Shown: piece after piece, positions 16,075 to 49,524 of the stretch
Numbering within the stretch: position 1 is the stretch's first letter
Layout of the letters: every line of letters begins with the position of its first letter
Notes under the pieces: generated by a model
The model's database searches: none
Seen by the model: the letters and a program-made list of their open reading frames with translations, nothing else
What the model was told of the DNA's origin: nothing
Origin: an archaeon
GTDB taxonomy: Archaea > Nanobdellota > Nanobdellia > SCGC-AAA011-G17 > GW2011-AR17
Reading direction: 5' to 3'
Length of the DNA: 51,911 bases
Assembly (NCBI GenBank): GCA_018656555.1
Contig: JABHZQ010000007.1
Coordinates: forward strand, 1-51,911
Position numbers and translations under genes: made by a program

Positions 16075-16099
16075 GCTAATTTCTTTGTTTTCATTATAT

Positions 16100-16174
16100 G
16101 GGCCCGTAGCTCAGCTTGGATAGAGCGCTAGCCTTCTAAGCTAGAAGTCGTGGGTTCGAATCCCTCCGGGCCCG
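16100..16174 (+). tRNA. tRNA-Arg (anticodon TCT)
   Basis: 75 bases forming a full cloverleaf. The 7-bp acceptor stem GGGCCCG/CGGGCCC has discriminator G. The anticodon stem CTAGC/GCTAG has loop CTTCTAA, giving TCT. The T loop is TTCGAAT. The T stem has one T-T mismatch. No intron and no encoded CCA. Confidence 0.95.
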
Positions 16175-16195
16175 TATTTTTTCTTTTTAGATAAA

Positions 16196-16205
16196 TTTTT
16201 AAATA
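16196..16205 (+). promoter_or_regulatory. TATA box of the sigma-like gene
   Basis: TTTTTAAATA 21-30 bases ahead of the ATG at 16,226. This shows an archaeal promoter driving the bacterial-type sigma gene, with a nearly leaderless message. Confidence 0.5.
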
Positions 16206-16225: not shown

Positions 16226-16894
16226 ATGATAACTACAGATCAAGACCATTTTTCAAGACATCCCATACTTCCAGATAGTGAGGTCTATAGTTTATTAACA
16301 AGTGCTCAAGATGGAGATGGATACGCAAGAAACAGACTGATTCAATGCCATTATAAGTTAGTTAAAGGTTTGGCAAGAAGATATGCCCTAGGGCTTGGTG
16401 TAGATGAGCCAGATCTTATTTCAAGAGGATTAGAGATTGTTAATAGAAGTATAACGGCTTATGATGGAGCACAGGGTGTACCATTTCCTAGTTATTTAAC
16501 AAAAAATGTTGCTAGAGGTTTATCCTCATTAGCTAAAGCAGAAAGAAAAAAAAGAATGCCAGTTGATAGAGATCAAGTGGGTGATGATGGTTCTTGGCTT
16601 GAAAATATTACAGAAGATGATAGCGCTAATCAAGAAATGAGATTATATCAAGAAAGGTTGGTAGCTATTATGCCTAGATTTTTAGGAAACCTTGTTGATT
16701 CGGGTTTATTAGCAGCAGACTATGCAGAAGCATTAAGTATGCGATATGGCTTAGATGGAAAACCCCAACATACTAATGCAGAGATAGATGCTTACTTTGG
16801 TATGTCAAAGGGTTGGGCAAGGGTAACTTTAAGTAGATGCTTATCAGAAATAGGTCCAAAGTTAGAAGGTAAGGGTCTAGACGATTTCTTATAA
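16226..16894 (+). CDS. Bacterial-type sigma-70 family protein
   Basis: 222 residues. Residues 26-112 match sigma-70 region 2: AQDGDGYARNRLIQCHYKLVKGLARRYA, then EPDLISRGLEIVNRSITAYDGAQGVPFPSYL, the counterpart of the 'DLIQEGNIGL...FDP..GF.FSTYA' core-binding and -10 recognition segment. Residues 165-210 match region 4, with MRYGLDGKPQHTNAEIDAYFGMSKGWARVTLSRCL as the helix-turn-helix. Region 1.1 is absent and region 3 is reduced to an acidic linker. Archaea use TBP/TFB and do not normally encode sigma factors. Key aromatic residues of region 2.3 look partly altered, so it may have been recruited as a DNA-binding regulator. It sits between two tRNA genes. Confidence 0.85.
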   Translation: MITTDQDHFSRHPILPDSEVYSLLTSAQDGDGYARNRLIQCHYKLVKGLARRYALGLGVDEPDLISRGLEIVNRSITAYDGAQGVPFPSYLTKNVARGLSSLAKAERKKRMPVDRDQVGDDGSWLENITEDDSANQEMRLYQERLVAIMPRFLGNLVDSGLLAADYAEALSMRYGLDGKPQHTNAEIDAYFGMSKGWARVTLSRCLSEIGPKLEGKGLDDFL

Positions 16895-16905
16895 TAACAA
16901 CAAAT

Positions 16906-16914
16906 CTTATAAAT
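16906..16914 (+). promoter_or_regulatory. TATA box of tRNA-Cys
   Basis: CTTATAAAT 25-33 bases ahead of the tRNA-Cys 5' end. Confidence 0.55.
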
Positions 16915-16938: not shown

Positions 16939-17010
16939 GCACCCGTGGCCAAGCGGCTAAGGCAAGTGGCTGCAACCCACTGATCCCCAGTTCGAGTCTG
17001 GGCGGGTGCT
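16939..17010 (+). tRNA. tRNA-Cys (anticodon GCA)
   Basis: 72 bases. Acceptor stem GCACCCG/CGGGTGC with discriminator T, the identity base for cysteine. Anticodon stem AGTGG/CCACT with loop CTGCAAC gives GCA. T arm CCCAG-TTCGAGT-CTGGG pairs fully. No intron and no encoded CCA. A T-rich run follows directly. Confidence 0.95.
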
Positions 17011-34510: not shown

Positions 34511-34538
34511 AAAAATTAAATCCCATTCGGTGATATAT

Positions 34539-36038
34539 ATGCTCGATACACGATCCATAAGACAACATTTCCCTTATTTGCAGGGAGATCTGGCCCTAAA
34601 TGTACAGAGAGAATTTCCAAGAGATAGAACTTTTTTGGATAACACTGCTTCTACACAATTACCTTTACCAGTTTTTGAAAGAATTGCTGAATCTCTTTTT
34701 GAGTATGCTAATATTCATCGAGGAGAGTATGATGCTTCACGAAGAACAACTGAAGATTTTGAAAGAGCCTATAATACTGCTGCTAATCTAGTTAATGCTG
34801 ATTCTTGGAGAGAGATTATGTTTGGTAGAAATGCTACTGAGATGGTTAATCTTATTATGAGAGGTATTGCTGAACAGATTAGAGATGGAGATAATATTGT
34901 TTCAACTCAACTAGAACATAATTCCAACTATGTACCTTGGTTTGGTTTACAACAGATGCTAAAGAAGAGAGGAATTAATATTGAAATTCGGTTGGCTGGT
35001 TTTGATAGAGAGACTGGAGAATTAGATCAAGGAGAACTTGAAAGTTTAATTGATGGTAAAACTAAATTAGTTAGTGTTACTGGTGCTTCTAATTTTTTAG
35101 GATATAAACCGAATGTACCAAGAATTGGCGAGGTTGCACATTCTTCTGGTTATGAACATACTGACGGTAGAAAAGGTTCTTACTTCTTGGTTGATGGTGC
35201 TCAATTAGTACCTGGAAGTCCAGTTGATGTTAAAAAAATGGGAGCTGACTTTTTAGCTTGGTCTTTCCATAAAATGAGTTTACCTTTAGGAGTTGGTGGG
35301 CTTTTTGCAAGAAAAGAAGTTATTGAAACTTTTGATCCATTCTTATATGGTGGAGATATGATTTATGATGTTCAAGAGGGAGCTGTTGAATATCAAGAGC
35401 TACCTTGGAAATTTACTGCTGGAACTCCCAATGTTATTGGAACTCTGGCTACTGGTTTTGGAACTAGTTTTTTGATGCACTTAGGTTTAGGAAACTTAGG
35501 ATCAGAAGAGGCTAGAGCTAAATTTATTGAAACACAAGCTTTTATGAATACTCCACGAGGAGATTTTGAGTTACCTTTTGCTGTATCAGAAAGAGATAGA
35601 GAGGTTTGGATTCCTTACTTGAGATCTAATCCTGGTAAAATGGCAATATTCAAAGATCCTGCACTGAGATTGGCAGAGACAAGAAGAATTATAGATGTTG
35701 CTATGGGCAATATCGAAACTCATGAACAAGAGTTAACTCAATCAATGATTGAGGCTTTGAGTGGAATTCCAAATGTTACTATTTATGGTCCTAAAGATGC
35801 AACAAAAAGAACAGGCTTGGTTGCATTTAATGTTAATGGTGTAGATCCACAAAATGTTGCCTTTGAATTAAACAGATTAGGTGTTGAATCAAGGAATGGT
35901 AATCACTGTGCATCTTTGGCTCATAATTATTTAGGAATTGAAGGAAGTGTTAGGTTTAGTTTCTATGTTTACAATGATCAATCAGATTTAGATAAAGCAG
36001 TTGATGCTGTTCGAGAAGTGGCTAGGAGGGTTGCATAA
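34539..36038 (+). CDS. SufS-type (group II) cysteine desulfurase with insertion
   Basis: About 499 residues from the ATG at 34,539 (MLDTRSIRQHFPYLQGD), with GGTGA just upstream; a GTG 9 bases earlier is less likely. PLP-dependent class V aminotransferase that takes sulfur from cysteine as an enzyme persulfide. Lys245 in AWSFHKMSLPLG binds PLP, preceded by VDGAQLVPGSPVDV. The catalytic Cys457 is in ESRNGNHCASLAHNYL, the group II form of 'R.G.HCA'. Compared with SufS (about 410 residues) there is an insertion of roughly 80 residues at about 310-390 (LGSEEARAKFIETQAFMNTPRG...). First gene of the operon; its stop overlaps the next start by one base. It probably supplies sulfur for the E1-like protein or Fe-S clusters for the radical SAM enzymes. 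Confidence 0.9.
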   Translation: MLDTRSIRQHFPYLQGDLALNVQREFPRDRTFLDNTASTQLPLPVFERIAESLFEYANIHRGEYDASRRTTEDFERAYNTAANLVNADSWREIMFGRNATEMVNLIMRGIAEQIRDGDNIVSTQLEHNSNYVPWFGLQQMLKKRGINIEIRLAGFDRETGELDQGELESLIDGKTKLVSVTGASNFLGYKPNVPRIGEVAHSSGYEHTDGRKGSYFLVDGAQLVPGSPVDVKKMGADFLAWSFHKMSLPLGVGGLFARKEVIETFDPFLYGGDMIYDVQEGAVEYQELPWKFTAGTPNVIGTLATGFGTSFLMHLGLGNLGSEEARAKFIETQAFMNTPRGDFELPFAVSERDREVWIPYLRSNPGKMAIFKDPALRLAETRRIIDVAMGNIETHEQELTQSMIEALSGIPNVTIYGPKDATKRTGLVAFNVNGVDPQNVAFELNRLGVESRNGNHCASLAHNYLGIEGSVRFSFYVYNDQSDLDKAVDAVREVARRVA

Positions 36039-37981
36039 TGGAACAATTACAAAGATTAATTCAAGAGAGTGGCTTAGAAGATCAAGCTGCATGTAAAGAT
36101 AATATTTTGATGTTAGGAAATTCACTTTTTGAAGCTTTTGGAATAAATGGTGGATTGGAAACAGATTATGAGAGAGGTTATGAAAAAGCAAGAGAATTTT
36201 TAGGAAGAGTTTGTGGTGTTTTTGATGATCCTACTCACTTAGTTAGAATAGCACCATTTGCTTATGCTTTCTTAGGAGAGGAGATGTTTAATAGAACTTT
36301 AGATGTTGTTTTACAAAAAGCAAGAGATAATCCTGATGACCGATCAATTTTAGATCAAGTTTTTAGTGGTGCTACTTTATTGAGACCTGAACTTAGAGCG
36401 GCCTTTTTATCTGATATTAGTGCAGCAGATGTTTTAGATGATGGACTTTTTGGTATTGATGATTATATTTCAGATGTTGATCCTAGTTTACAATTTGAAA
36501 GTGCAGATGCATTTCCAAGTCAGTTTACAACTGCTAATGTTAGGAAAGCTACTGAGTTACTTGGAAAATATTTACAGATGGGTGTTTTTCGTTCTGGAGT
36601 AGGTTTTACTGAGAATTTTGAAGCATTAAATCAAAGTATGGAAGGGTTTGGATATTTGATGGAAAGATCTACTGATGATTTAACTTTAATTGTTACAAGG
36701 GATCCTGTAAAGTTTATGTCTATGGGTTTAGGTAATGTTGCTTTTACAGATAGAATTACTGCGCGACCTCAAGGTGATGGTGATCAAAAAGATTTTAGAT
36801 ATCCTGGAACTGTTCTTGTTGATGATGATGTATCTTTACAAGAGGTTCAAAGATTCTATGCAGATGCTACAGTTGTCTATCTTAATAGAGATGTTCCTAC
36901 TGGATTTGAGCATTTAGTTGTTGGTGATGATGAAGATGTTATTGGAGCCCATTTAAGATTTATTTCAAAGAATCGGAAAGAAGGCTTGGTTCATCTTGGA
37001 GCTATGTTAGAGGCAGAAGTTAGAAATGCTGAAGATTTAGTTAGTAGAGGGAATGAATATTTCTTAGATGTAAGAAAAGGATTAGAAGATTTAGGAAGAA
37101 GAGATCTTATTGATAGAATGGTTGAAGCTGGAGGATATAGTGTTCCTCACAGAACTGATGCTAATTTAATGGTTTTAGTTTCTCCTAAAAGAAAAGATTT
37201 AGCAGATATATTTGAAGGAAGAGCTGGAGCGGATAAGAGAATGATGTTTTATAGAGAATTGCCTACTATTGAAGATACTGGAATGCCTTTTGTTTTTGTG
37301 ACAACTGAAGCAATACCTCAAAGTGAAATACTTGCAGCTTATCCTTCTGCAACTATCTTGTATGTTGCTGAGAATGATGCTAAGGAAAAAGCAATTTTAG
37401 CGGTTGATGAGAATGCTTTTGTTGTTAATGAAAAAACTGTTGCACCAAGAGGTAGGTTTAGAGGTACAGATAAAGGTAGAGTTGGAGATTGGGTTGTTAA
37501 TAGTTTCTTTGATAGAATTGCAAGAGCAAGAGGAGAAGGAATTACTAGTATGTATGATATTGCAAGAGGAATATCTGATGAAGTGAAAGATAGAAGAGAT
37601 AAAATAATGTTTGCAACCCATCTTAGAGGTTTTTATGATGAAGCAGCCCCTTATTATCGACTGCAGGAACAATTTGGACAGATGCCATTAGTTTTGCAAT
37701 TGACTGATGGTGTTCTTATGGAAAGTTGTCCAACTGGTGGATGTTTTAATTTAGATGCACCAGACACTGGAGGTTGTTGTGGTGGGGGAAATCTTCCAGG
37801 AGTATTGATTGATTTTGCAATTGCATATAGAAAACAAGTAGGTGAAGAGAGGTTTATGCGGGAATTAACTGCATATCATGATGGAGACGTAAGAGAACCG
37901 TGGTATTTTGATAGTACCCACTATCAAAGACACTTTAAAGGTTTGACAGAAACAGCAGATCAAGATGGAATGATCTTATAA
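36038..37981 (+). CDS. 647-residue protein with internal duplication and CPTGGC Cys-rich motif
   Basis: Not recognised. The N-terminal 210 residues are helical. Two similar segments follow, at about residues 214-310 (LTLIVTRDPVKFMSMG ... YADATVVYLNRD) and 376-475 (LMVLVSPKRKDLADIF ... YPSATILYVAEND). Each looks like a small alpha/beta domain ending in a 'DE-x-(V/F)' strand. Near the C-terminus Cys564 and Cys569 (SCPTGGCFN) and Cys580-Cys581 (TGGCCGGG) form a Gly/Cys-rich loop that could hold a metal, an Fe-S cluster or a persulfide. The same CPTG-x-C motif opens the JAMM protein two genes on. Position directly after the desulfurase suggests a sulfur acceptor or scaffold; this is inference. 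Confidence 0.75.
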   Translation: MEQLQRLIQESGLEDQAACKDNILMLGNSLFEAFGINGGLETDYERGYEKAREFLGRVCGVFDDPTHLVRIAPFAYAFLGEEMFNRTLDVVLQKARDNPDDRSILDQVFSGATLLRPELRAAFLSDISAADVLDDGLFGIDDYISDVDPSLQFESADAFPSQFTTANVRKATELLGKYLQMGVFRSGVGFTENFEALNQSMEGFGYLMERSTDDLTLIVTRDPVKFMSMGLGNVAFTDRITARPQGDGDQKDFRYPGTVLVDDDVSLQEVQRFYADATVVYLNRDVPTGFEHLVVGDDEDVIGAHLRFISKNRKEGLVHLGAMLEAEVRNAEDLVSRGNEYFLDVRKGLEDLGRRDLIDRMVEAGGYSVPHRTDANLMVLVSPKRKDLADIFEGRAGADKRMMFYRELPTIEDTGMPFVFVTTEAIPQSEILAAYPSATILYVAENDAKEKAILAVDENAFVVNEKTVAPRGRFRGTDKGRVGDWVVNSFFDRIARARGEGITSMYDIARGISDEVKDRRDKIMFATHLRGFYDEAAPYYRLQEQFGQMPLVLQLTDGVLMESCPTGGCFNLDAPDTGGCCGGGNLPGVLIDFAIAYRKQVGEERFMRELTAYHDGDVREPWYFDSTHYQRHFKGLTETADQDGMIL

Positions 37982-38002
37982 TAAAATTTGGAGGCAAATA
38001 AA

Positions 38003-38692
38003 ATGGCTACATTAGGAGCATGTGGGGATGAAAGACCTGAAGATAGAAAAGCAGAGCAAAAAAGAGCAAAAAAAGTACATAAATTCAACGAGATAGGAGA
38101 GATGCCAATTACAATGGTTGCTTATCCTGGATGTATTGAAGGAGATAGAGTTCCTGTTTCTGTTAAAGGTGATGATAGAGCAGTTTTACTTTTTGGTACA
38201 GCAGACATGATTGCAAGATATGTAATTGGAGAAGAAGTTGCATTACCAAAAAAAGGTAAGGGTATTAAATCTATTCCTAAAGCACTTAGGGGACAAACAT
38301 TCAAAAGAAATGTTACTAGAAGATATGAAGAACCAGTTGAAAGAATTGGAGATGAAATGCATGGAACTGGTGGAGTTGGAGAATTAGCTAAGAGACAAAA
38401 TAAAACCTATAAGGGATATACTCTAAAAGCTAATGGTGACAGTTTAACTGCTGACTCTATTGTGAATAGTTACTTCACAGAGATGGTCTTTGTTGAGGGC
38501 CCAGAAGGTAGACCAGTACCTAAATCTGTTGATGACCTTGTTGCTGAAGATGTAAAAATCCTTAGAAAAGATCAGGAAGTTCATGTTTTAGGTGGAGTTG
38601 AAATGGTTATAACTGCGATTCTTGTTTCAGGACAATATGAACCTGCAGCAAAAACCCCTGCATATGGAGATGACATTACATCAAGAATATGA
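38003..38692 (+). CDS. 229-residue protein, candidate ubiquitin-like modifier precursor
   Basis: Starts at the ATG at 38,003 (MATLGACGDERPEDRK) behind GGAGG at 37,990-37,994. After a charged N-terminal segment come two similar-sized beta-rich parts, residues about 33-110 (MPITMVAYPGCIEGDRVPVSVKG...) and 135-210 (TYKGYTLKANGDSL ... LRKDQEVHVLGGVEM). The second part ends in LRKDQEVHVLGG, Gly197-Gly198, followed by a 31-residue extension; another GTGG lies at residues 121-124. A ubiquitin-like precursor cut after Gly-Gly by the JAMM protease would look like this, but the beta-grasp fold is not proven from sequence. Its stop overlaps the E2-like start (ATGA). Confidence 0.75.
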   Translation: MATLGACGDERPEDRKAEQKRAKKVHKFNEIGEMPITMVAYPGCIEGDRVPVSVKGDDRAVLLFGTADMIARYVIGEEVALPKKGKGIKSIPKALRGQTFKRNVTRRYEEPVERIGDEMHGTGGVGELAKRQNKTYKGYTLKANGDSLTADSIVNSYFTEMVFVEGPEGRPVPKSVDDLVAEDVKILRKDQEVHVLGGVEMVITAILVSGQYEPAAKTPAYGDDITSRI

Positions 38693-40137
38693 GTCTAGAA
38701 ACAACATTTTTAGATAGGATTGCTGAGAGGCAATCCTCTTTTGTATTATTTAAAGGTCAGGCTTATGCTATTACTGAAGATCCAATTAATGGAAATTTCT
38801 TGGATATTATGGGAAGCAGAATGGCTTTAGTTCCTTCTATGCCTTTTAGAGATTTTGAAAGGTTAGATGAACAACTTTATGGGGCTGATGTTGAAAACTA
38901 TTGTGCTAGATATGTTCGTGAAAAAATTGATAGTGAATTAAGAGCTGAAGATGAAGTAAGAAGAGAAACTTCTCGAATTAATACTTTAAAATATTTAATG
39001 GATAGATTATTACCTCATTTAGTTGCAAAAAAATATAGTTCTGATGAAATACTGTTACATGAGGTTCTTGGAACTGAAGTGGATAAAGGTCCTGTGGATC
39101 TAGCACGAGATGAAATAAGAGAAAAACTAAATCATGATTTTGGTGTTGAGGATATTGAAGTTGATGAAGATCCTGCTGAGAGAATGAGAGCTAATGTTTT
39201 GGCGAGAGAGAAAGGAGAGTTAGATAGAGCACCTTTAATGGGTGAAGCTGGAGAGTATGATTCTGTTTTACAGGCTGTTATAGGTAATCAACCAATTTAT
39301 GTTATGGATGGTAGATTGTATGCTCTTGAATCTCCGGGTGATATTGAAAGAGGAAAATTTACATTTGTTATGGGTGGTAGAGCTTATACTCCTTCAGAGA
39401 CAAGACTTCCAAGTTTAAGGGAAGTATCTCAAGAAATTTTGGAAAGGAGAAAAATGGTTTGGAGAATTGCTGCTCTTGAAAGGAGTCAAGATACTTTTGC
39501 AGGTATAAGAGATCAGATTCATACTGCAGAAGTTACTGAAAGACAGATGCATGAGTTGGCTAAGTTAGAAGAATTTGATTTAGGGAGTTGTGGTTTTGTT
39601 TTGAAAGATGGTTCTTATTATGTTTATTCAAGAGTTCCTAAGTTTGCAACACAAGATGGAAGAGATAAGGATGTTTTTTGGCCTTATGATGCAACAAGAG
39701 TTGCAATTAAGATTGGGTGGAGTGGGGGCCAAGCTCATAGTAGTGGTGATGGAGTTGTTATTGAGAAGAGAGAGTTTCATCCTTGTTTAAGAAATAGATC
39801 TAGTGGAGGGTGGAAAGGAATTTGTAACTTAACTCGGGGAGCGAGTGATTATGGAAAAACTCCTGCAGAGATGGTTAGAAAACTTTCTGATGCTGTTACT
39901 GTTATTACTGAACCTTTGTCAGAAATAAGTTTGAAAAGGCATGGGAGTCCAGGTAGTTATTCTTATTTTGGGGATAGTGTTGAGTCTATTTTAGGACAGG
40001 GTTCTCTAACAAGAGAAGAAGCTGAAGAACAAGGTTATGGTATTGTTGAAGTTATTGCAAAAACTTTGGAGTTAGAAGATTTACCAGAAATTGAAGAAGT
40101 GGAAGATGAGGGAGAGGATGGAAAAGTAGAGGAGTAA
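38689..40137 (+). CDS. E2 (ubiquitin-conjugating)-like protein
   Basis: 482 residues. Residues about 300-420 carry an E2-type pattern: LKDGSYYVYSRVPKF, DVFWPYDATRVAIKI (compare 'YPF.PP.V.F.T'), then FHPCLRNRSSGGWKGICNL with His364-Pro365 and the candidate catalytic Cys379 in GIC, as in the E2 signature 'HPN...G.IC', and a following helix (TPAEMVRKLSDAVTVITEP). The N-terminal 300 residues contain an internal duplication: FVLFKGQAYAITED...MALVPSMP (residues 18-65) and IYVMDGRLYALESP...AYTPSETRLPS (198-260). The C-terminus is acidic. The neighbouring E1-like and JAMM genes strongly support a conjugation role. The family assignment is from pattern, so it is probable but unproven. Confidence 0.78.
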   Translation: MSLETTFLDRIAERQSSFVLFKGQAYAITEDPINGNFLDIMGSRMALVPSMPFRDFERLDEQLYGADVENYCARYVREKIDSELRAEDEVRRETSRINTLKYLMDRLLPHLVAKKYSSDEILLHEVLGTEVDKGPVDLARDEIREKLNHDFGVEDIEVDEDPAERMRANVLAREKGELDRAPLMGEAGEYDSVLQAVIGNQPIYVMDGRLYALESPGDIERGKFTFVMGGRAYTPSETRLPSLREVSQEILERRKMVWRIAALERSQDTFAGIRDQIHTAEVTERQMHELAKLEEFDLGSCGFVLKDGSYYVYSRVPKFATQDGRDKDVFWPYDATRVAIKIGWSGGQAHSSGDGVVIEKREFHPCLRNRSSGGWKGICNLTRGASDYGKTPAEMVRKLSDAVTVITEPLSEISLKRHGSPGSYSYFGDSVESILGQGSLTREEAEEQGYGIVEVIAKTLELEDLPEIEEVEDEGEDGKVEE

Positions 40138-40141
40138 AAAA

Positions 40142-41923
40142 ATGGTTAAGAAGAAGAAGAAAAAGCAAGTAGATGATGAATGTCCTACTGGAGTATGTGG
40201 TTTAAATGGTGTACATAATGGTGGGTATGATGATGATGGTGATTTTGGTGATGAATTATTAGATATGGTTATGGGTGATGATGAGCCTAAAGTAGAAAAA
40301 GTTCCTGCTTTAGTTGATTTACTTCCTGCACAATTAGTAATTGAGGATAGGGCTTTACAGTTAGGTTATATGATTGGTCCTTTGACTCAACAGCATTATA
40401 AAAAAGCTTTAGAGGTTGGTGGATTTCTTATTGTTGATAGAGATGCTCCTGCCCATTATTTAGATTTTGCTATTCCTCATGGTTTACCTGTTACTTCAGG
40501 AACTGTTGTTATGGCTGATCATTATGATAATGTTGCTGTCGAGAATCGAGCTAATAATCAAAGAAATGGCACTCATCTAAAAATTGGTGCTATGTTTCAT
40601 ATTCATCCAAGTAAGGGAAATCAAGGTTTGTACCATAGTGGACAAGATGATGCTGCAAGTTTACAGTTACTTGGACGAATGGCAAAAACTACAAGAGTGG
40701 TTCATGAAGCTAAATTTCCTTTGTTTGAAGAGGCAATGAGAACAGAGTATGGTGAGGGCGAGTATGTTTTAAGAGGAGATGCTTTGAGTGATGCTATTCA
40801 GAGATTTGTTTATCCTGATGAACAAATGTTTAAAGAAGTTCTAAGAAGTTTTGGAATTAGAGTTCCAAGAGAGCTTAATAGAGATAAATTTTTAGGAAGA
40901 TTATTAGATACAATTGGAAAGGATACTCTTGAACCTAGAAAGGTGAATTATGCTGTTAGTTTTGTTTTTAATAATGGTGGAAAAGGACCTTATGTAAAAA
41001 TGACTGCTGAAGAGCGGTTTGCTATTTCAGGTAAGAAGAATGTTACTACTATTGATAATAGAAGTGGATTAAGTATAGTTAAATCTAATGTTGGAGTAAA
41101 TTTACCAACAGAGGAAGAAGTTTTGGCTCTTATTGCTGAGAGAGTTGTCTATAATCCTCCTAAGCCCCCTGCTAAAAAAGTTATTGGTGCAGGAGGAAGT
41201 CAAGGGGGATGGCAAAGTTGGGGTAGACAAGGTGTTGCTGGTGCTATTGGTCAATGGTTAGATGGTACAGGACAGGCTGGTGGTGCAATTCCTCTATCAG
41301 GAAGTAGTACTTATTATACTAGACCTGTAAGAAAAACTGTTGCTGAAAGAATTGCAAGTTTGGATGCATTGGTTCAAGCACAAGAACCAGATGATCAATC
41401 AGATGTATATGCAGAACTTATGGGTGAAGAGGTAGAACCTGTAAGAGCTAAACCAAAAGCTAAATCTAATCTTGATGTTATGGACAAAAGTGAAGAAGCA
41501 ACTTACACCAATGTGGAGATTATTGATCTTTTTGTTTTAAAGTTAGGAGCTTACATTACTGAAGCTAGACATAGTTGGGCAACTTATTCAACTTACCTTT
41601 ATGAATTGTTTGATGAGGGAATTGGAACCTATACAAAAAAAGATGGTTATGTGGGATTAAAAGATAGTGTTATGGAATTGGGTGAATTGGTTCAAGATAA
41701 TCCACAAATTGTTGAAAGACATACTCTGAGACCCTATAAATTTGGGCATGCAGGTGAAAATTTGATTAAAGAATATATGGCAGAGCGAGATGAGAGGACA
41801 GTTGACTTTATGTTATCTTTTGGTTTAGCTGCTGGATTCCCTGAAATGGATGCTGCTCTTGAAAGTTATGTGCAAGATGTGTTAGATTATGATCAAGAAG
41901 AAGCACCCGAAGGAGTAGAATGA
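40142..41923 (+). CDS. JAMM/JAB-domain metalloprotease
   Basis: 593 residues. The zinc peptidase motif is complete: Glu91 (LEVGGFLIV), His153 and His155 (MFHIHPS), Ser166 and Asp169 (HSGQDDAAS), the E...HxHP...SxxD signature of Rpn11- and Mov34-type deubiquitinases, with a slightly long loop between HxHP and S. The N-terminus is lysine-rich followed by ECPTGVCGLNG (Cys14, Cys19), echoing CPTGGC in the 647-residue protein. A Gly/Ser-rich linker (residues 340-400) leads to a helical C-terminal domain. Expected to mature a ubiquitin-like precursor or remove it from targets. Stop overlaps the E1-like start (ATGA). Confidence 0.88.
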   Translation: MVKKKKKKQVDDECPTGVCGLNGVHNGGYDDDGDFGDELLDMVMGDDEPKVEKVPALVDLLPAQLVIEDRALQLGYMIGPLTQQHYKKALEVGGFLIVDRDAPAHYLDFAIPHGLPVTSGTVVMADHYDNVAVENRANNQRNGTHLKIGAMFHIHPSKGNQGLYHSGQDDAASLQLLGRMAKTTRVVHEAKFPLFEEAMRTEYGEGEYVLRGDALSDAIQRFVYPDEQMFKEVLRSFGIRVPRELNRDKFLGRLLDTIGKDTLEPRKVNYAVSFVFNNGGKGPYVKMTAEERFAISGKKNVTTIDNRSGLSIVKSNVGVNLPTEEEVLALIAERVVYNPPKPPAKKVIGAGGSQGGWQSWGRQGVAGAIGQWLDGTGQAGGAIPLSGSSTYYTRPVRKTVAERIASLDALVQAQEPDDQSDVYAELMGEEVEPVRAKPKAKSNLDVMDKSEEATYTNVEIIDLFVLKLGAYITEARHSWATYSTYLYELFDEGIGTYTKKDGYVGLKDSVMELGELVQDNPQIVERHTLRPYKFGHAGENLIKEYMAERDERTVDFMLSFGLAAGFPEMDAALESYVQDVLDYDQEEAPEGVE

Positions 41924-43377
41924 CAAAAGAAGTACAAACTGGAATGATTGAAGAAGATCGATATAGAAGGCAGAAACTTATTTGGGGAGATGAAGGACAA
42001 GCAAAACTTGATAATGCAAAAGTTGCTGTTATTGGTCTTGGTCCTCAAGGAATTTATAGTGCCTTGTGTATGGCTGCTTTAGGTATTGGTAATATTGTTC
42101 TAGTTGATGGTAATAATAGTGATGTTGGAGAGATGTTCCTAGATATGGATGTTCCCCAAGGTGCAAGAGGAGATGTTTATCCTGAATTGTTAAGAAGAAT
42201 AAACGCTCAAATTGGTATTCAAGGTTATGCTACTAACTTAGAAAGTTCTATTGATCAATTAGCATTAAGTGGTGCGAATGTTATTGTTGATGCTACTAAT
42301 AACCAGAGATCTAAAAGATTAGCTCTTGCTTTTGGAAGAGAGAAAGATATTCCTGTGTTGAGTACTTCTTCAAGATGGGGTTATACTAAACTTATGTTGG
42401 GAAGTGAGGGAAAGGAGCCTGAAATGTTAATGCCAATGTTTGAAGGACATGAACAAGATCCATTAATGGCTTTGGTAATGGCTGGAATTGTAACTGAGAA
42501 AGTTAAGAAGTTAGCATTTGGAAGTTTGGATGAGGTTATTAGAGATCCAATTAGGTATAGACTTGGTGGGAAGAGGTTTGGATTTCCAGATGTAGATGAA
42601 GAGATACCTTTACCAAATTATGATTTGTATAGAGCATTGAATATTTTATTTTTAGGAGAGGGTGCATTAGGAAATTGGGCTACAATTGCAATGTCCCATT
42701 TAAGACCTGGAAGAGTTGATAAGGTCGACTATGATATCTTTGAATCACATAATATTAATAGACAGGTTTTGGCTTATGATGGAATTGATGCAGAAAAAGC
42801 TGCACACCTTGCTGAAAAATTAAGAAGGATGACAAAAGGTGCTACAGAGAGTGAAGGTTTTAATGTAAAGATTCTACCTGGTTTTTCTCTTGAAAGAGAG
42901 TATGATTATGTTTTTGATCTTGTTGATAATTTTTATACTAGGGCTGTGAATAGTGCTTTTGCTGTGAATAATCATATTCCTCTTGTTAGTGCTGGAGCAG
43001 GAGCACACGGTGGAAGATGGGATGTTCATGTTGAAGGAGAAACTCAATGTATGGGTTGTATGTTTGATATTTATGAAAGAGGAAGAGAGGAAGAGATTAT
43101 TAGAAGAGTTAGTTGTGCTGCTAATCCAAATCCTGCTGTTGTTATGAGTAATGCTATTGCTGGTGTTGCTGCTGTTTTAGAATTATTTAGTTTAGTGGAA
43201 CCTGAAAAATATGGTGGAGCATTTAATGGGGAGCAAACTTATAGGGCTGTGGGTAAGGTTAGGTTAGGTACTTCTCCTTCTAGAGGAGCTTGTGATTGTT
43301 ATTCTAATGAAGCTCCAAGTTTAGAGATTAGTGAGGCAGAGGTTGCAGCTTATACAGAGGCAGGAGGGGAGAAGTAA
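41920..43377 (+). CDS. Two-domain E1/ThiF-like activating enzyme
   Basis: 485 residues with two Rossmann domains of the ThiF/E1 family. Domain 1: YRRQKLIWGDEGQAKLDNAKVAVIGLGPQG, nucleotide loop at residues 39-44. Domain 2: LFLGEGALGNW, loop at 246-251, then VDYDIFESHNINRQVL with Asp270/Asp272 and Asn280-Arg281, the adenylation residues. CxxC (Cys377, Cys380) and CDC (Cys458, Cys460) are likely zinc ligands; Cys399 in VSCAANPNPAV is the best candidate for a thioester cysteine. The order of a first, less canonical domain and a second, complete domain resembles the inactive and active adenylation halves of eukaryotic E1. No ubiquitin-fold domain is seen. Activates the C-terminus of a ubiquitin-like protein with ATP. 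Confidence 0.88.
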   Translation: MTKEVQTGMIEEDRYRRQKLIWGDEGQAKLDNAKVAVIGLGPQGIYSALCMAALGIGNIVLVDGNNSDVGEMFLDMDVPQGARGDVYPELLRRINAQIGIQGYATNLESSIDQLALSGANVIVDATNNQRSKRLALAFGREKDIPVLSTSSRWGYTKLMLGSEGKEPEMLMPMFEGHEQDPLMALVMAGIVTEKVKKLAFGSLDEVIRDPIRYRLGGKRFGFPDVDEEIPLPNYDLYRALNILFLGEGALGNWATIAMSHLRPGRVDKVDYDIFESHNINRQVLAYDGIDAEKAAHLAEKLRRMTKGATESEGFNVKILPGFSLEREYDYVFDLVDNFYTRAVNSAFAVNNHIPLVSAGAGAHGGRWDVHVEGETQCMGCMFDIYERGREEEIIRRVSCAANPNPAVVMSNAIAGVAAVLELFSLVEPEKYGGAFNGEQTYRAVGKVRLGTSPSRGACDCYSNEAPSLEISEAEVAAYTEAGGEK

Positions 43378-45845
43378 TGGAGGAAGAAGAAGATTTTATT
43401 CTGGATCTATTTGAAGAGTCTCTAGATGCTGGGAAAAAAGAGGAAGTAATTGCTTGGGAAGCTCCTGCAGTTAATAGAGTTGCTAGGGTGTTGGAAGAGG
43501 GTAGGAGAGATGTTACTAATTATGATCCTTTTACAAATATTTTAGTGGGTTATTTAGTTAGAGAGGGGAGGAAAGGTTTGGTTGGAGAGTTGAATGGAGT
43601 TAGTCAAGAAGATAGAGTTAAAATATTATTAGCTGCTGAAGCTTTGGCTCCACATAGAGTTAATCCAAAAGTTAGCGATGTTGAATCTTTTGAAGATTAT
43701 ATGGGTGCAGTTGGTGTTGCATTTGGTGAAAGATTAGGAAGAATGTTGAGGTTGGATATGGAATTTAAGGGTGTTGAAGAAGCTAAAGCAGAAGGAGTTG
43801 AATTTGTTGATGAAATTGATCCTTTGTTTAGTGGTTTTAGAGCTGAAACTTTAATTGCTGCTAATGTTGTTTCTAATTTAGTTGGTGAGGTTGAGGTTGG
43901 AAGTTATGATGAATTAGCTAGAGCTGCTTTCTTAAATTTTAATGGTAGTGAAGGAAATGGAGTTTTAGATGTTACAAAAGTTCTTGTTGAAAAAAGTTTG
44001 GGTGCAGCAGATGTTGATTTAGATGTTGATACTGCTGTTGCAAGATATCAAGAGATTTTAGTTTCAAGATTTGGTTTTACTCAAGATTTGATTACTCAGT
44101 TAGAAAGGTTTCAAGGAATGACTTTTGATTTTAATGGAATGTCTAGAATGATTAGAACAGAATTTGAAGAGAGAACTGGTTATGTTCCTAATATTGGAAC
44201 TCATTATGATAGAAGAGCATATGAAAGATTGAAAGGAGAACTTCTTGAATTAGATGTAAAATTGTTTAAACCTCTTCCTACTGAACCGACTCAACATTTT
44301 AATAGTAGAGATTGGGCAAGACCACATCAGGCTATGGGTGAAGGTGGTAAACGTTATCATAGAAGAAGAAGTGAAACTATTGAAAAGCTTCCTCTTGGAA
44401 CTGTGGGTCATCTTGATGGTGATCATGATTTTGTGCCGACCAATAAAGGAGGATACTTTCATTTAAGATATAGAGAGTTGCAAAAGTTAGAAGAGGTTAT
44501 TCTTGAGGTTGCTGGGGCGGGTGGAGATTTTAGAAGAGGAGATAGAGTTAAACTTGTTAATAATTTAGGACCTCAATCACATTATGATACTGATGAATAC
44601 TATTATGGTGGAACTATAAGGGAAATGAAGCTAGGAATTGAAGGAGAGGTTATAACTGGAGATGATAGAATGGTTAGAATAGAGTTTCCGAGAAGAGCAT
44701 GGAATTGTCATCCAGATGAATTGAAAAACTTAACAAGAACTCCAGAAAAAATAGAAGATGAAAAAGATGAAAGAGAAGAATTGAAAGTTGTTATGGCTGA
44801 AGTTGTTAGTGGGGCTGAAGCTGATTTTGAGAGAGCAAAAGAGAATAAGGAAAGGTTGGTTAGAGATGGTGTTGATACTTTTAGAGCAATGGGTGTTGAT
44901 GATGGAGTTATAAGGTATTTCTTTGATCAATATTTAGATGATGTTGCTGAGTTTGGAGATTTTATGCCAGAGGGAACTATCTTTAATGAAATTATGGAAA
45001 TACAAGAGAGTATGAATTATGGTGGGCTAAGAGATAAAGTTGTTGCATTGGTTAAAGATAGGATGGATGTTTTAGTTAAAGTTGATGATGTAAGAGATGC
45101 TGGAGAGTATGGTAAGTTTAAGGAAGATCTTGTTGATAGAGTTTTACATGGATTTAAGGATAAAAAAGGTAAGAAAACTGAAGGGTTTGAAAGAGGAGAA
45201 CCAGTTATGTTGGATGAAGCTCATGGAAAATATCCAAAGGGAACTATTGCAATTTATCATGCTGATTGTGGGGATGATCATCATGTTGATTTTGATGATG
45301 GGGCTACTGATGTCCATATAGATGAAAGAGTGATAGGTGTTGCTGCTGCTTATGCTTTACCTAAGATTCCTACTGCATATGAGGGGATGAAAAAAGGAGT
45401 AAGGGTTAAGATTAGAAAAGATAGTGAGTATGCTCATCAAAATGATGGAGAAGGAGTAATGGTTAATAATTTTGGGGATGAAGAAGGAGGAAGAGAGCTG
45501 TGGGCCAAGGTTAAATTTGATAAGGGTAGAGGTAATAATTATAGGGAAAAAGATTTAGAACCGGTTGATCCTGCTAAATTAACAGGAAGGAAATTAAAAA
45601 AATATAACAAAGCTGTTGCTGCAATGGAAGAGTTGAAAGTTGGGATTGAAGAACAGTTAGGTCCTATAATTGCAGAGGCTGAGAGAGATCATGCTGATGT
45701 TAATAGAAGATTAGATGATCTTACTATGAAAACTATTGATACTTTTAGAAGTATGGGATTTGAGGATGAGGCTATTGGAACTATGTTTAGAGAAAACATG
45801 GGAGATACTTCTTATTTGAGAGAGAGGGAATTGTTAGACTATTAG
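43377..45845 (+). CDS. 822-residue protein with SH3-like (MIB/HERC2-like) barrels and MGF repeats
   Basis: Not recognised as a whole. Residues 1-375 are helical, with a FGFTQDLITQLERFQGMTFDF stretch that aligns with segments of the two following radical SAM proteins. Residues 388-454 are a barrel (GDRVKLVNN...EYYYGG...GIEGEVI...WNCHPDELKN) also present in those proteins. Two more barrels follow, at 604-652 and 670-730; the last (GVRVKIRKDSEYAHQNDGEGVMV...KVKFDKGRGNNYREKDLEPV) resembles the MIB/HERC2 domain of ubiquitin ligases. Two repeats DTFRAMGVDDGVI and DTFRSMGFEDEAI look like the MGF loop of UBA domains. A recognition or ligase-like adaptor is possible. Starts one base inside the E1-like stop. 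Confidence 0.75.
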   Translation: MEEEEDFILDLFEESLDAGKKEEVIAWEAPAVNRVARVLEEGRRDVTNYDPFTNILVGYLVREGRKGLVGELNGVSQEDRVKILLAAEALAPHRVNPKVSDVESFEDYMGAVGVAFGERLGRMLRLDMEFKGVEEAKAEGVEFVDEIDPLFSGFRAETLIAANVVSNLVGEVEVGSYDELARAAFLNFNGSEGNGVLDVTKVLVEKSLGAADVDLDVDTAVARYQEILVSRFGFTQDLITQLERFQGMTFDFNGMSRMIRTEFEERTGYVPNIGTHYDRRAYERLKGELLELDVKLFKPLPTEPTQHFNSRDWARPHQAMGEGGKRYHRRRSETIEKLPLGTVGHLDGDHDFVPTNKGGYFHLRYRELQKLEEVILEVAGAGGDFRRGDRVKLVNNLGPQSHYDTDEYYYGGTIREMKLGIEGEVITGDDRMVRIEFPRRAWNCHPDELKNLTRTPEKIEDEKDEREELKVVMAEVVSGAEADFERAKENKERLVRDGVDTFRAMGVDDGVIRYFFDQYLDDVAEFGDFMPEGTIFNEIMEIQESMNYGGLRDKVVALVKDRMDVLVKVDDVRDAGEYGKFKEDLVDRVLHGFKDKKGKKTEGFERGEPVMLDEAHGKYPKGTIAIYHADCGDDHHVDFDDGATDVHIDERVIGVAAAYALPKIPTAYEGMKKGVRVKIRKDSEYAHQNDGEGVMVNNFGDEEGGRELWAKVKFDKGRGNNYREKDLEPVDPAKLTGRKLKKYNKAVAAMEELKVGIEEQLGPIIAEAERDHADVNRRLDDLTMKTIDTFRSMGFEDEAIGTMFRENMGDTSYLRERELLDY
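44538..44740 (+). repeat. Shared SH3-like module, copy 1 (in the 822-residue protein)
   Basis: Codes for EYYYGG, then LGIEGEVI, then WNCHPDEL. The same spacing of Y-x-YGG, LG-x-x-GE and W-x-x-HPDE recurs in the two downstream radical SAM proteins. Confidence 0.75.
44871..44940 (+). repeat. Internal helical repeat with MG(V/F) motif, copy 1
   Basis: Encodes DTFRAMGVDDGVIRYFFDQYLDD. It matches a second copy at 45,735-45,800 (DTFRSMGFEDEAIGTMF) and is preceded in both by a charged helix. Confidence 0.65.
45384..45567 (+). other. MIB/HERC2-like domain within the 822-residue protein
   Basis: A GxRV start, a 'DGEG' turn, a (W/V)-K-F-D-x-G strand and NNYREKDLEPV end follow the order of MIB/HERC2 domains ('G..V.RG.D....DG..G.V...W.NG..N.YR...DL'). 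Found by eye, so a profile search is needed. Confidence 0.5.
45735..45800 (+). repeat. Internal helical repeat with MGF motif, copy 2
   Basis: Encodes DTFRSMGFEDEAIGTMFREN near the C-terminus. MGF between two short helices is the classical UBA loop. Confidence 0.6.
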
Positions 45846-45854
45846 GAGAAAAAA

Positions 45855-47254
45855 ATGAAAAATAGAACACTAACCTTGGTAAATGTTGTTAATGATGGCG
45901 ATTGTATAGAGCAACAAGAATGCCTGCACTATCTCTGGCGTATTTAGCTGCTCATACACCTGAAAATTGGGATGTAAAAATAGTTGATGAAACTGTTGAA
46001 CCCTTTGATGCATGGAAACATGTTGAAGGTTCAGATATTGTTGGATTCAGTGGTGGAAATGTATGTAATATTCATAGACTTACTGATCATATTTCTAGAG
46101 TTACAGAATATGATCAAGTTATGGGAGAAGAAACTCCAATTATTTTAGGTGGATATGTTGGCGGATTAAATATTGAAGGATTACCTAATAGAGTGGATGC
46201 TAGAGTTATTGGTCCTGGTGAATTAGCTTTACAAGAATTACTAGCTGATTTTGAAAATGGTGGAATGAAAAGAGAGTATGTTGGTCAAAGAGTTCCGATG
46301 AATGAATTAAGGACTCCTGATTTCTCTGGATTTAATGTTGCTGCTTATGGTAAAAATGTTAATTGGCCTGTAATGACTTCTGTAAGTTGTGGAAATACTT
46401 GTGGATTCTGTAGTGCAAGAGTTGTTTATGGTGATGGTTATGCAAGTAGATCTCCTGAAAAAGTTCTAGCAGATATGGCACAATTTGATCCTGATACTAG
46501 ACTTTATTTTGTAGACCCTAATGTTTTGCAACTTTCAAGAAATGGTAAAAGAAGAGCTAGAAAATTGTTTAAAGGCATGGCTAAACAAAATCATCCTTGG
46601 TTTGGATCTGCAACTTTTAGAGTTTCTGAAGATGAAAGAATGTTAGAAGCAATGGCAGAAAGTGGATGTAAGGGTTTGTTAATTGGATTTGATTCTGCTC
46701 TACCTGAAAGTTTACAGACTGTATCTGCTCCAAAATATAGAGTAAGAGAGGATCAAACTTTAATTGAATATTATGTTGAAGGTGTAAAAAGAATACAAGA
46801 AAAGTTTGGTATTGATGTTTTGGGAACTTTTGTTATTGGTTTTGATACTGATGATGAAAGAACTATTGCAAATACAATTAGGGTTGTTCAAGATTCTGGA
46901 ATGAAAGATGCACAGTATTTACCATTTACCCCTCTTCCAGGTACACCATCTTATAATGAAATGGAAGCAGCAGGTAGAATCATAGATCATAATCTTAATC
47001 GTTATGATTTTACTGATGTTGTTTTTAGACCACAAAATTTCTCTGGTGCAGAATTAAGAGATTCATTAGTAAAGATGTATGATGAAACCTTCCCCAGAAT
47101 GTTGGCAATCTATAGAAGATTTGGTTTGGTTAGAGATAGACCTGAATTGATTAAAGTTGAATCAATGAAGTTAAGAGCTGAAAGAGAAGAAAGAGCAGCA
47201 AGGGAAAGAGAAAGGAGAGGGAGAAGAAGGGGTGGAGGCGGAGGACATCATTAA
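45855..47254 (+). CDS. B12-binding radical SAM protein with apparent frameshift
   Basis: The radical SAM part is intact: CxxxCxxC in SVSCGNTCGFCSARVVYG, then GSATFRVSEDERML, GFDSALPES and GTFVIGFDTDDERT, with an N-terminal cobalamin-type domain (LYRATRMPALSLAYLAAHTPENWDVKIVDETVEP, GFSGGNV, IILGGYVGGL). The long frame opens only at a TTG (45,902) in mid-domain. The missing first strand, MKNRTLTLVNVVNDGD, is encoded in another frame from the ATG at 45,855 behind AGGAG. The frame changes by -1 near 45,897-45,902, so one base seems to be missing or the ribosome shifts. The tail is RRGRRRGGGGGHH, a basic, Gly- and His-rich end. No slippery heptamer is seen. Substrate unknown. Confidence 0.82.
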
Positions 47255-49524
47255 TGGAAGCTGCTTTACAACAACCTTCAACAGGAGATGCAATTGATAG
47301 TTTACTTAGGAAGACCTATCAATTAGTTGCACAAGATAGGATGCATCAGATTGCTGAAATAACTGGTAATCAAGGTTTAGTTCAAGAGTATGGTTCTGGT
47401 GTGAATAGTATCATAGATTTAGAATCACTTTTTGCATTTGCAGGAGAGTTACCTTCACAAGAAGTGCTAGCTCGTATGGTTAAAGCAAAAATTGTTAGTA
47501 AATATGGAGAGGGTGTTGGGGAAGAGGTTATAAGAGTTGAAGAGAGGAGAGAAAGCGAACTTGCAGATCCTCCTGTTGATTATGGTATGTTTGTTGGTGA
47601 GATTAGAGAGGGAATAAATGATAGATTTAGAATTAGTGTTCCTGAAGTAACTGTTCCAGGAAGAGAGGGTTATGGAAAACATAAAACTGAACTAGAAAGA
47701 ACTGTAGCAACAGAAATAGAAAGAAGATTAGATGGGAATTATGGAGAAATTATAGAAGTTACTGAGCTGGCTGGTTTTGATATGGATACTTTAGATCCTG
47801 AATATCATTATGGTGGAAATGAAGATGATCTTGCATTAGGAAGTAGAGGAGAAATTATTGAGGTTGGAGCGGATAGGTATTCTGTTATGGTTGATAGTGT
47901 TGAATGGCAATTACATCCTGATGAAGTTACTCTTACTGGTGAGAACAAATATGCTGGAGTGGATGTTGTTAAGGTTGTTAGAGATATAATTCAAACTGTT
48001 GAAGATAATAAAATGGAAGCTCATATTGCAGGGCAGATAGCAGCTATTAATCAAAATAGAGATAGAGATTTAGATATACGAACTCGTATTTTTAGAGAGG
48101 AATATGGATTAAGTATTGATCAAATATTGGCCATGCATAGAGAAGAAGATTTTGAATATGAAGTTCCAGGTCTACCTAAAGTTGGACCGGGTCTTGTCCC
48201 ATTTAGTGATTTGTATAAATTATTAGCAAAAGCTATTAGTCAAAGAACAGGAAAGGAAATATTGGGTGGGGCTGATGAAATCACTACTAGTGGTGAATTT
48301 AGAATTAATGTTACTGAAGCTGCTGATCATCTTGGTGTTGATAATGATTTGGTTTTAAGAGTTAGTAGTGAAGTTGCAGATATCTTAGATAAACAACACT
48401 ACCTAAAAGGTAGAGAATATGCTGCTAGAAATGGTGCTAAAGATGTTACAAGAGCTATGATTGAAGAAATGTTAGGTAGAGATGGTCTGCCTTGGACTAG
48501 AAGACTTGTGCTATATGCTAACAAAGATGTATATGAAGGAGGAGATCCTTTTGCACCTCCCTCTGAAGAACTATTCAGAGTTATAAAACTTGAAGTTGGT
48601 GGAGGTTGTGCTTATGGAAAATGTACCTTTTGTATGGAATATGCTGGTGCACCTTTCTTTGTTCATAAACAGGCTAAGTTTGAAGCCCATGCAAGAGAAG
48701 TTAAGAGATTGTTGGGAAGTGATAGTGAATATATTAGGAGAGTCTTTCTTTCAGGAGGAGATACTTTTGCTCTTCCAACAAAAAGATTGAAAGGTTATCT
48801 AAGCACTGTTAATGAACTTTTTAATGATGGTTATGAGAGAAATATTAGAAGAGTTGAAGCTTTTTCAAGAACAGAAGGAATTACAAGAAAGAGTGTTGGT
48901 GAAATTAAAGATTTAGTTGATCATAATCTTAGACTTCTTTATTGGGGAGCTGAAACTGGATCTGATGAACTTTTGGCTTATGTAAATAAGGGTATTACAA
49001 GAGCTAAAATGGATAAAGCTATTGCTAAATTAACAAGCACTTCGATGATGGTTTCTATTATGATTATGCCAGGGTTGGGTGGAATGAGATTTTATGATCA
49101 ACATGTAAGAGAGACAGTAGCTCTTGTTAATGCTTTGAAACCAAGATGGACAACTTTCCATACAATAACTCCAAAACCAGGAGCAAGATATGGTAAGATA
49201 ATGGCTGAAGAGATGGCTGCAGGAACTAATAGACCTCTAACTGAGGAAGAGGTTGTTGAACAGATGCATGATATTGTTGCAGGTATGCGTACAGGTTATA
49301 GAAATTTGGTTGCAACTTATTATCCACCCTCTGCAAAGATTGCAATTAATCCAGTTACATTTAGAGGTTATATGCATAGGGGAAATGGTCAATTTGGAAT
49401 TTTGACTGAATTGAAAGAGTGGTTTAGCCTAGGGGAGAGAGTACCAAGTCAAGATTTAGTTGATACTGATTTTAATAAAGGGAGTGGAATAAGAGCTTTG
49501 GCTAGAGGTGGAGAAGCATGGTAG
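47254..49524 (+). CDS. Radical SAM protein with N-terminal accessory modules (paralog 1)
   Basis: 756 residues. Residues 1-430 are accessory: a helical start (DSLLRKTYQLVAQDRMHQI), the shared barrel at 174-231 (EYHYGGNEDDLALGSRGEIIEV...WQLHPDEVTL), and REEYGLSIDQILAMHREEDFEYEV. The radical SAM core begins at FRVIKLEVGGGCAYGKCTFC with Cys452, Cys457 and Cys460, a CX4CX2C spacing seen in some COG1032-type proteins in place of CX3CX2C. FLSGGDTFALP, WGAETGSDELLAYVNKG and MIMPGLGGMRFYDQH follow. Paralog of the next gene, which it overlaps by 7 bases. Likely acts on a protein or peptide delivered by the accessory part; that is inference. Confidence 0.85.
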   Translation: MEAALQQPSTGDAIDSLLRKTYQLVAQDRMHQIAEITGNQGLVQEYGSGVNSIIDLESLFAFAGELPSQEVLARMVKAKIVSKYGEGVGEEVIRVEERRESELADPPVDYGMFVGEIREGINDRFRISVPEVTVPGREGYGKHKTELERTVATEIERRLDGNYGEIIEVTELAGFDMDTLDPEYHYGGNEDDLALGSRGEIIEVGADRYSVMVDSVEWQLHPDEVTLTGENKYAGVDVVKVVRDIIQTVEDNKMEAHIAGQIAAINQNRDRDLDIRTRIFREEYGLSIDQILAMHREEDFEYEVPGLPKVGPGLVPFSDLYKLLAKAISQRTGKEILGGADEITTSGEFRINVTEAADHLGVDNDLVLRVSSEVADILDKQHYLKGREYAARNGAKDVTRAMIEEMLGRDGLPWTRRLVLYANKDVYEGGDPFAPPSEELFRVIKLEVGGGCAYGKCTFCMEYAGAPFFVHKQAKFEAHAREVKRLLGSDSEYIRRVFLSGGDTFALPTKRLKGYLSTVNELFNDGYERNIRRVEAFSRTEGITRKSVGEIKDLVDHNLRLLYWGAETGSDELLAYVNKGITRAKMDKAIAKLTSTSMMVSIMIMPGLGGMRFYDQHVRETVALVNALKPRWTTFHTITPKPGARYGKIMAEEMAAGTNRPLTEEEVVEQMHDIVAGMRTGYRNLVATYYPPSAKIAINPVTFRGYMHRGNGQFGILTELKEWFSLGERVPSQDLVDTDFNKGSGIRALARGGEAW
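47773..47946 (+). repeat. Shared SH3-like module, copy 2 (radical SAM paralog 1)
   Basis: Encodes EYHYGGNEDDLALGSRGE followed by W-x-x-HPDE and TGEN. Near-identical to copy 3 in its first half, and related to copy 1. Confidence 0.85.

Follow-up and report, generated by a model that had tools for sequence, protein, structure and literature searches.

A predicted sigma-70 family protein with few remaining sigma contacts, encoded between two tRNA genes in an archaeon of the Nanobdellota

The window, which is the whole stretch of 51,911 nucleotides that was analysed, carries an open reading frame of 222 aa (16226..16894, + strand). Its profile matches, alignment and predicted fold identify this frame as a sigma-70 superfamily gene with the architecture (1.2)-2-4 and without region 3. 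The putative product lacks most of the residues that a working sigma would need. We propose, at about an even chance, that it is a diverged sigma-derived DNA-binding regulator which no longer forms a canonical holoenzyme. A general initiation factor is not the best reading of the protein, and possibly it is a fading relic. In the textbook view, archaeal transcription depends on TBP and TFB for its initiation, never on sigma. Sigma-70 homologues are present in about a third of the sampled genomes of the phylum. The window gene lies at the far end of their range, where the sigma fold appears to be retained after the sigma contacts are gone.

An earlier note on this DNA had placed the frame between two tRNA genes and read its product as a sigma-70 homologue with regions 2 and 4. 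The position, the setting and the homology were confirmed. Region 2 (aa 38-93; 16337..16504, +) matches PF04542 with 27.6 bits, above the cut-off of 24. The TIGR02937 sigma70-ECF model matches at E 3e-10 over aa 34-209, and its 39.8 bits are slightly below the cut-off of 42.9. Among phage families, phrog_351 (RNA polymerase sigma factor, 3e-13) is matched best, and the solved SigA and RpoS chains are matched at E 1e-8 to 1e-6. Region 2 of the earlier reading therefore stands, while region 4 passed no Pfam region 4 model; alignment to relatives and the predicted fold support a region 4-like helix-turn-helix domain at aa about 132-214 (16619..16867, +). In the alignment, a short disordered linker (16559..16618, +) takes the place that region 3 has in most relatives. 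The AlphaFold2 model was built from an alignment in which the window protein stands together with sigmas of bacteria and phages, and has a mean pLDDT of 85.6. It consists of two helical domains with the disordered linker between them (pLDDT under 50 at aa 117-129). All top Foldseek matches of the model are sigma factors in RNA polymerase complexes. In VIA-align, domain 2 superimposes on Legionella RpoS region 1.2-2 (Z 13.7, rmsd 1.7 A, 96 residues). In the match to whole-length sigma-S (Z about 15) the rmsd is large, as the relative placement of the two domains differs. Such Z values are near the chance level of helical bundles, but no family other than sigma appears in the match list, and the sequence homology is a separate line of evidence.

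The gene is native to its archaeal surroundings, as the earlier note had read it. It is flanked by tRNA-Arg(tct) upstream (16099..16175, +) and tRNA-Cys(gca) downstream (16939..17010, +), all on the same strand, and the latter has its own TATA-like TTATAAAT at 16907-16914. An archaeal LeuRS, an archaeal-type SMC, Kae1 and a PACE-CTERM S-layer protein are also encoded in the window. The GC3 of the sigma gene is 0.19 (mean 0.18) and its CAI is 0.668; both are inside the range of the 23 other window genes, which for the CAI is 0.618-0.796. The archaeal TATA box named in the note, TTTAAA, was found at 16198..16203 (+), 28 nt 5′ of the ATG. The window and contig C25, together about 190 of the 1083 kb of the genome, provided 108 upstream regions. 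In these, TTTAWA is concentrated at -30..-26 relative to the start codon, where it has 35 hits, compared with about 4 in each 5-base bin elsewhere. Such a peak is a mark of leaderless archaeal promoters, and the TATA box of the sigma gene lies within it. The bacterial origin of the sigma-70 family would speak for bacterial contamination or a chimeric contig, an explanation that we regard as barely credible. A bacterial chimera is contradicted by the composition, which is that of the contig, by the archaeal TATA box and by the archaeal genes on both sides; moreover, independent sigma genes occur in half of the order. The host genome contains a single TBP, a single two-repeat TFB and a single Rpb1_1, the archaeal RNA polymerase large subunit. 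Any sigma in this genome would therefore meet only the archaeal polymerase.

The contact surfaces of region 2 have largely been replaced (DLISRGLEIVN; PSYLTKNVARGL). The clamp and -10 contact positions, in E. coli RpoD numbering, are those of the bacterial sigma literature. At the clamp contacts L402, D403, Q406, E407, N409 and M413 the window protein has P, D, S, R, L and N, with D403 alone kept (1/6). The conservation of the polymerase-contacting residues of region 2, suggested in the note as a test, thus fails. The -10 residues Y425, F427, T429, Y430, W433, W434, Q437, T440 and R441 are V, F, S, Y, K, N, R, S and S, and two of the nine, F427 and Y430, remain. Both melting tryptophans, W433 and W434, are lost, while most paralogs retain them. 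In region 2 the identity to E. coli is 3/15 at the contact positions versus 19/82 residues overall. The structural or buried residues V387, D403, L404, G408, F427, Y430, R451 and P453 are retained. Since V387, L404, G408, F427, Y430 and P453 are buried positions, the fold seems to have been maintained through the changes at the surfaces. The alignment shows a deletion of region 3, and PF04539 has no match. The recognition segment of region 4 is GMSKGWARVTLSRCL versus LTRERIRQI in relatives, and this helix is degenerate.

In most of the 87 archaeal sigmas compared, the residues with which bacterial sigmas grip RNA polymerase and melt DNA are still present. The E. coli residue is conserved at E407 in 74%, at N409 in 73% and at W434 in 79% of the sequences, in a set that was collected largely by its region 2 score and thus leans to conserved copies. 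The aromatics at 433/434 and an acidic residue at 407 are both kept in 53 of the 87 and both lost in six, the window protein included.

A second sigma gene of the same genome is located on contig C25 (L032:9827-10717; G000:C25, about 39826-40716) and encodes 297 aa with regions 1.2, 2, 3 and 4. It is situated between a cyclophilin-like gene and a gene for a membrane protein, with an integrase and an HNH protein nearby, and has a TATA-like box, TTTAAG, at -28. The C25 sigma retains DLIQEGN and TYATWWIKQ and keeps 4/6 clamp and 6/9 -10 contacts; phmmer finds a relative in G003 at 258.9 bits. Judged by these residues, the C25 sigma is far more canonical than the window protein, and as a candidate for a working archaeal sigma it is to be preferred. 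The earlier note had considered the window gene as a possible conserved recruited factor. This was not borne out, given that 1/6 clamp contacts is kept and that a search of 17 other family genomes at E 1e-3 gave no match; the conserved candidates for such a factor are paralogs such as the C25 sigma.

The window protein is an orphan. A single-protein search with it returned no close relatives in the viral and genome contig collections, and the profile scans led only to relatives in bacteria and phages, with identities of about 22-38%. Its best archaeal match is L072 of genome G329 (E 1.3e-12, 25% identity). In the tree its terminal branch is long, and the nearest sequence is 3.8 substitutions per site away. 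The window protein pairs there with the sigma of genome G084 (support 0.89); both look like long branches, and the tree gave no clear phylogenetic home. The locus itself could be compared with that of genome G003, where SMC, the S-layer gene, tRNA-Cys and the ortholog of the 14799-15980 gene are found in the same stretch. Other genes are present there between the tRNA and this ortholog, and the sigma gene is absent. The site is therefore variable. No att-like repeats were found at the sigma locus of the window.

Among known sigma types, the best sequence and fold matches of the window protein are the bacterial SigA, RpoS and SigK (groups 1-3), with which it shares the order of a region 1.2-like helix, region 2 and region 4. 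Unlike these, it has no region 3, no melting tryptophans and few clamp contacts, and the host polymerase is archaeal. The ECF sigmas (group 4) are similarly small and have only regions 2 and 4. The window protein differs from them in its region 1.2-like N-terminus, in scoring 12 bits with PF07638 against a cut-off of 21.1 and in leaving PF08281 (Sigma70_r4_2) unmatched; in addition, its closest relative, L072, is of a region-3-less group 1-3 type. This sigma of G329 (L072/L130) is also the nearest in design, with 221 aa, regions 1.2-2-4 and no region 3. In contrast to the window protein, it keeps 3/6 clamp and 7/9 -10 contacts and a canonical region 4.

The occurrence of sigma-70 genes in DPANN archaea is already known. 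Rinke and colleagues are said to have reported sigma factors in archaeal single-cell genomes in 2013. The mention of sigma-like genes in DPANN in the earlier note agrees with Castelle 2021 (PMC8204110), whose passages on the family fam00359 report them mostly from Woesearchaeota, exclude mis-binning via co-encoded genes and state that no anti-sigma factor was found. As described in those passages, fam00359 resembles the window protein in being a bacterial-type sigma-70 of small archaea in which TBP and TFB are present as well, and no anti-sigma factor is seen in either case. The window copy differs in having no region 3 and in the loss of polymerase and -10 contacts. A residue-level and promoter analysis is given here and is absent from the same passages.

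Sigma genes recur in related genomes. Within the order, 48 of 103 genomes have a PF04542 match above the cut-off; in the phylum sample, in which completeness is 80% or more, 122 of 371 genomes do. In a control set this model matched only the 10 bacteria and none of the 4 archaea. No bacterial polymerase large subunit was detected in the genomes searched. Several sigma genes from different genera adjoin the same housekeeping genes or lie close to them; in G038 and G042, for example, they are located between ribosomal L10e-like and lysyl-tRNA synthetase-like genes (names by sequence reading). The shared neighbours argue for vertical keeping of those copies. No recurrent operon partner or anti-sigma gene was observed around the archaeal sigmas, the recurrent neighbours being housekeeping genes. 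The tree divides the archaeal sigmas into 28 separate groups with weak support and does not recover them as one clade.

Several other sigma-like proteins were observed in these genomes. Two genomes of the same family as the window genome encode orthologous 462 aa proteins (L062:9947-11335 in G002; L070:4310-5698 in G001). A sigma region 2-like N-terminus is followed in them by a long repeat-like region, without region 4, which by sequence is a different sigma-derived architecture. Archaeal sigmas of 496 aa (L041:9429-10916, G019) and 401 aa (L039:9485-10687, G041) have added N-terminal regions that resemble small helix-turn-helix domains, HTH_17 reaching only E 0.06 in L041. In genome G375 (L086), two adjacent proteins have a region 2 of FliA/WhiG look and may represent bacterial contamination or a flagellar-type sigma pair.

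No class of sigma-type promoters was seen in the 190 kb covered by the promoter statistics; a look for -10-like motifs in front of genes had been suggested in the note as a check. In the 108 upstream regions, two -35/-10 pairs were observed versus 2.8 expected, a test that a small regulon would escape. Neither TATAAT nor TTGACA has a positional peak, while that of the TATA box is sharp. The clamp coiled coil is nearly invariant in all large subunits located by motif search; the clamp helices are of the usual archaeal type, without a difference between sigma-positive and sigma-negative genomes. On its sequence the polymerase thus shows no sign of adaptation to sigma, and would remain compatible with sigma binding. 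Genome G058 has three Rpb1_1 matches (G058:C32, G058:C77), compared with one in the others; it may be a mixed bin or have additional polymerase subunit copies.

We propose that the window gene descends from sigma genes which circulate in the archaeal lineage, and that region 3 was subsequently lost. The protein would bind DNA through the region 4 helix-turn-helix and the remaining surface of domain 2. It may modulate the TBP/TFB-dependent transcription of a few genes, and would neither replace TBP/TFB nor melt a -10 element. The degenerate recognition helix of region 4 weakens the proposed DNA binding. The gene might instead be a fading relic: a lineage sigma, duplicated or transferred, that was inserted at the variable tRNA-flanked site and now drifts there without function. 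This main rival seems rather unlikely to us. The functional surfaces that are kept no better than the rest, the long terminal branch, the missing family matches and the other genes at this site in G003 are what drift would leave. The intact frame of 222 codons, the host codon usage, the well-placed TATA box, the retained buried residues and the confidently predicted two-domain fold speak against it.

Compared with the diverged regulator that we favour, a working alternative sigma would dock on the clamp coiled coil of the archaeal RNA polymerase and direct it to special promoters. The sigma fold and homology of the window protein are consistent with this, as is the retention of the DLIQEGN and WW motifs by canonical paralogs in genomes where no bacterial polymerase is present. 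For the window copy we consider it improbable in view of the replacements Q406S, E407R, N409L, M413N, W433K, W434N and Q437R, of clamp helices that are equal in sigma-positive and sigma-negative genomes and of -35/-10 pairs that do not exceed chance. A true alternative sigma is more plausible for the paralogs. We consider it unlikely that Nanoarchaeota have a second promoter system, in which special promoters would be opened by canonical paralogs such as the C25 protein, bound to the archaeal RNA polymerase, with degenerate relatives such as the window protein as modulators or decoys. A sigma-like factor derived from a virus or mobile element and acting on host transcription could account for phrog_351 as the best phage family, for the variable site next to tRNA genes and for the integrase and HNH protein near the C25 paralog. 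It is very improbable, given that the viral contigs with relatives, as far as examined, look like ordinary bacteriophages with RpoD-like sigmas, that the locus has no att-like repeats and that its neighbours are housekeeping genes. Sigma action on an archaeal polymerase can be tested directly, and the C25 protein is a better object for such a test than the window protein.

Apart from the sigma locus, the window contains a run of large + strand genes at 34530-51854. They encode a class-V aminotransferase (SufS-like), a ThiF/E1-like protein, several proteins of 234-822 aa without a Pfam match and three radical SAM proteins, one of which has a B12-binding domain. This run looks like an archaeal cluster for the modification of peptides or natural products.
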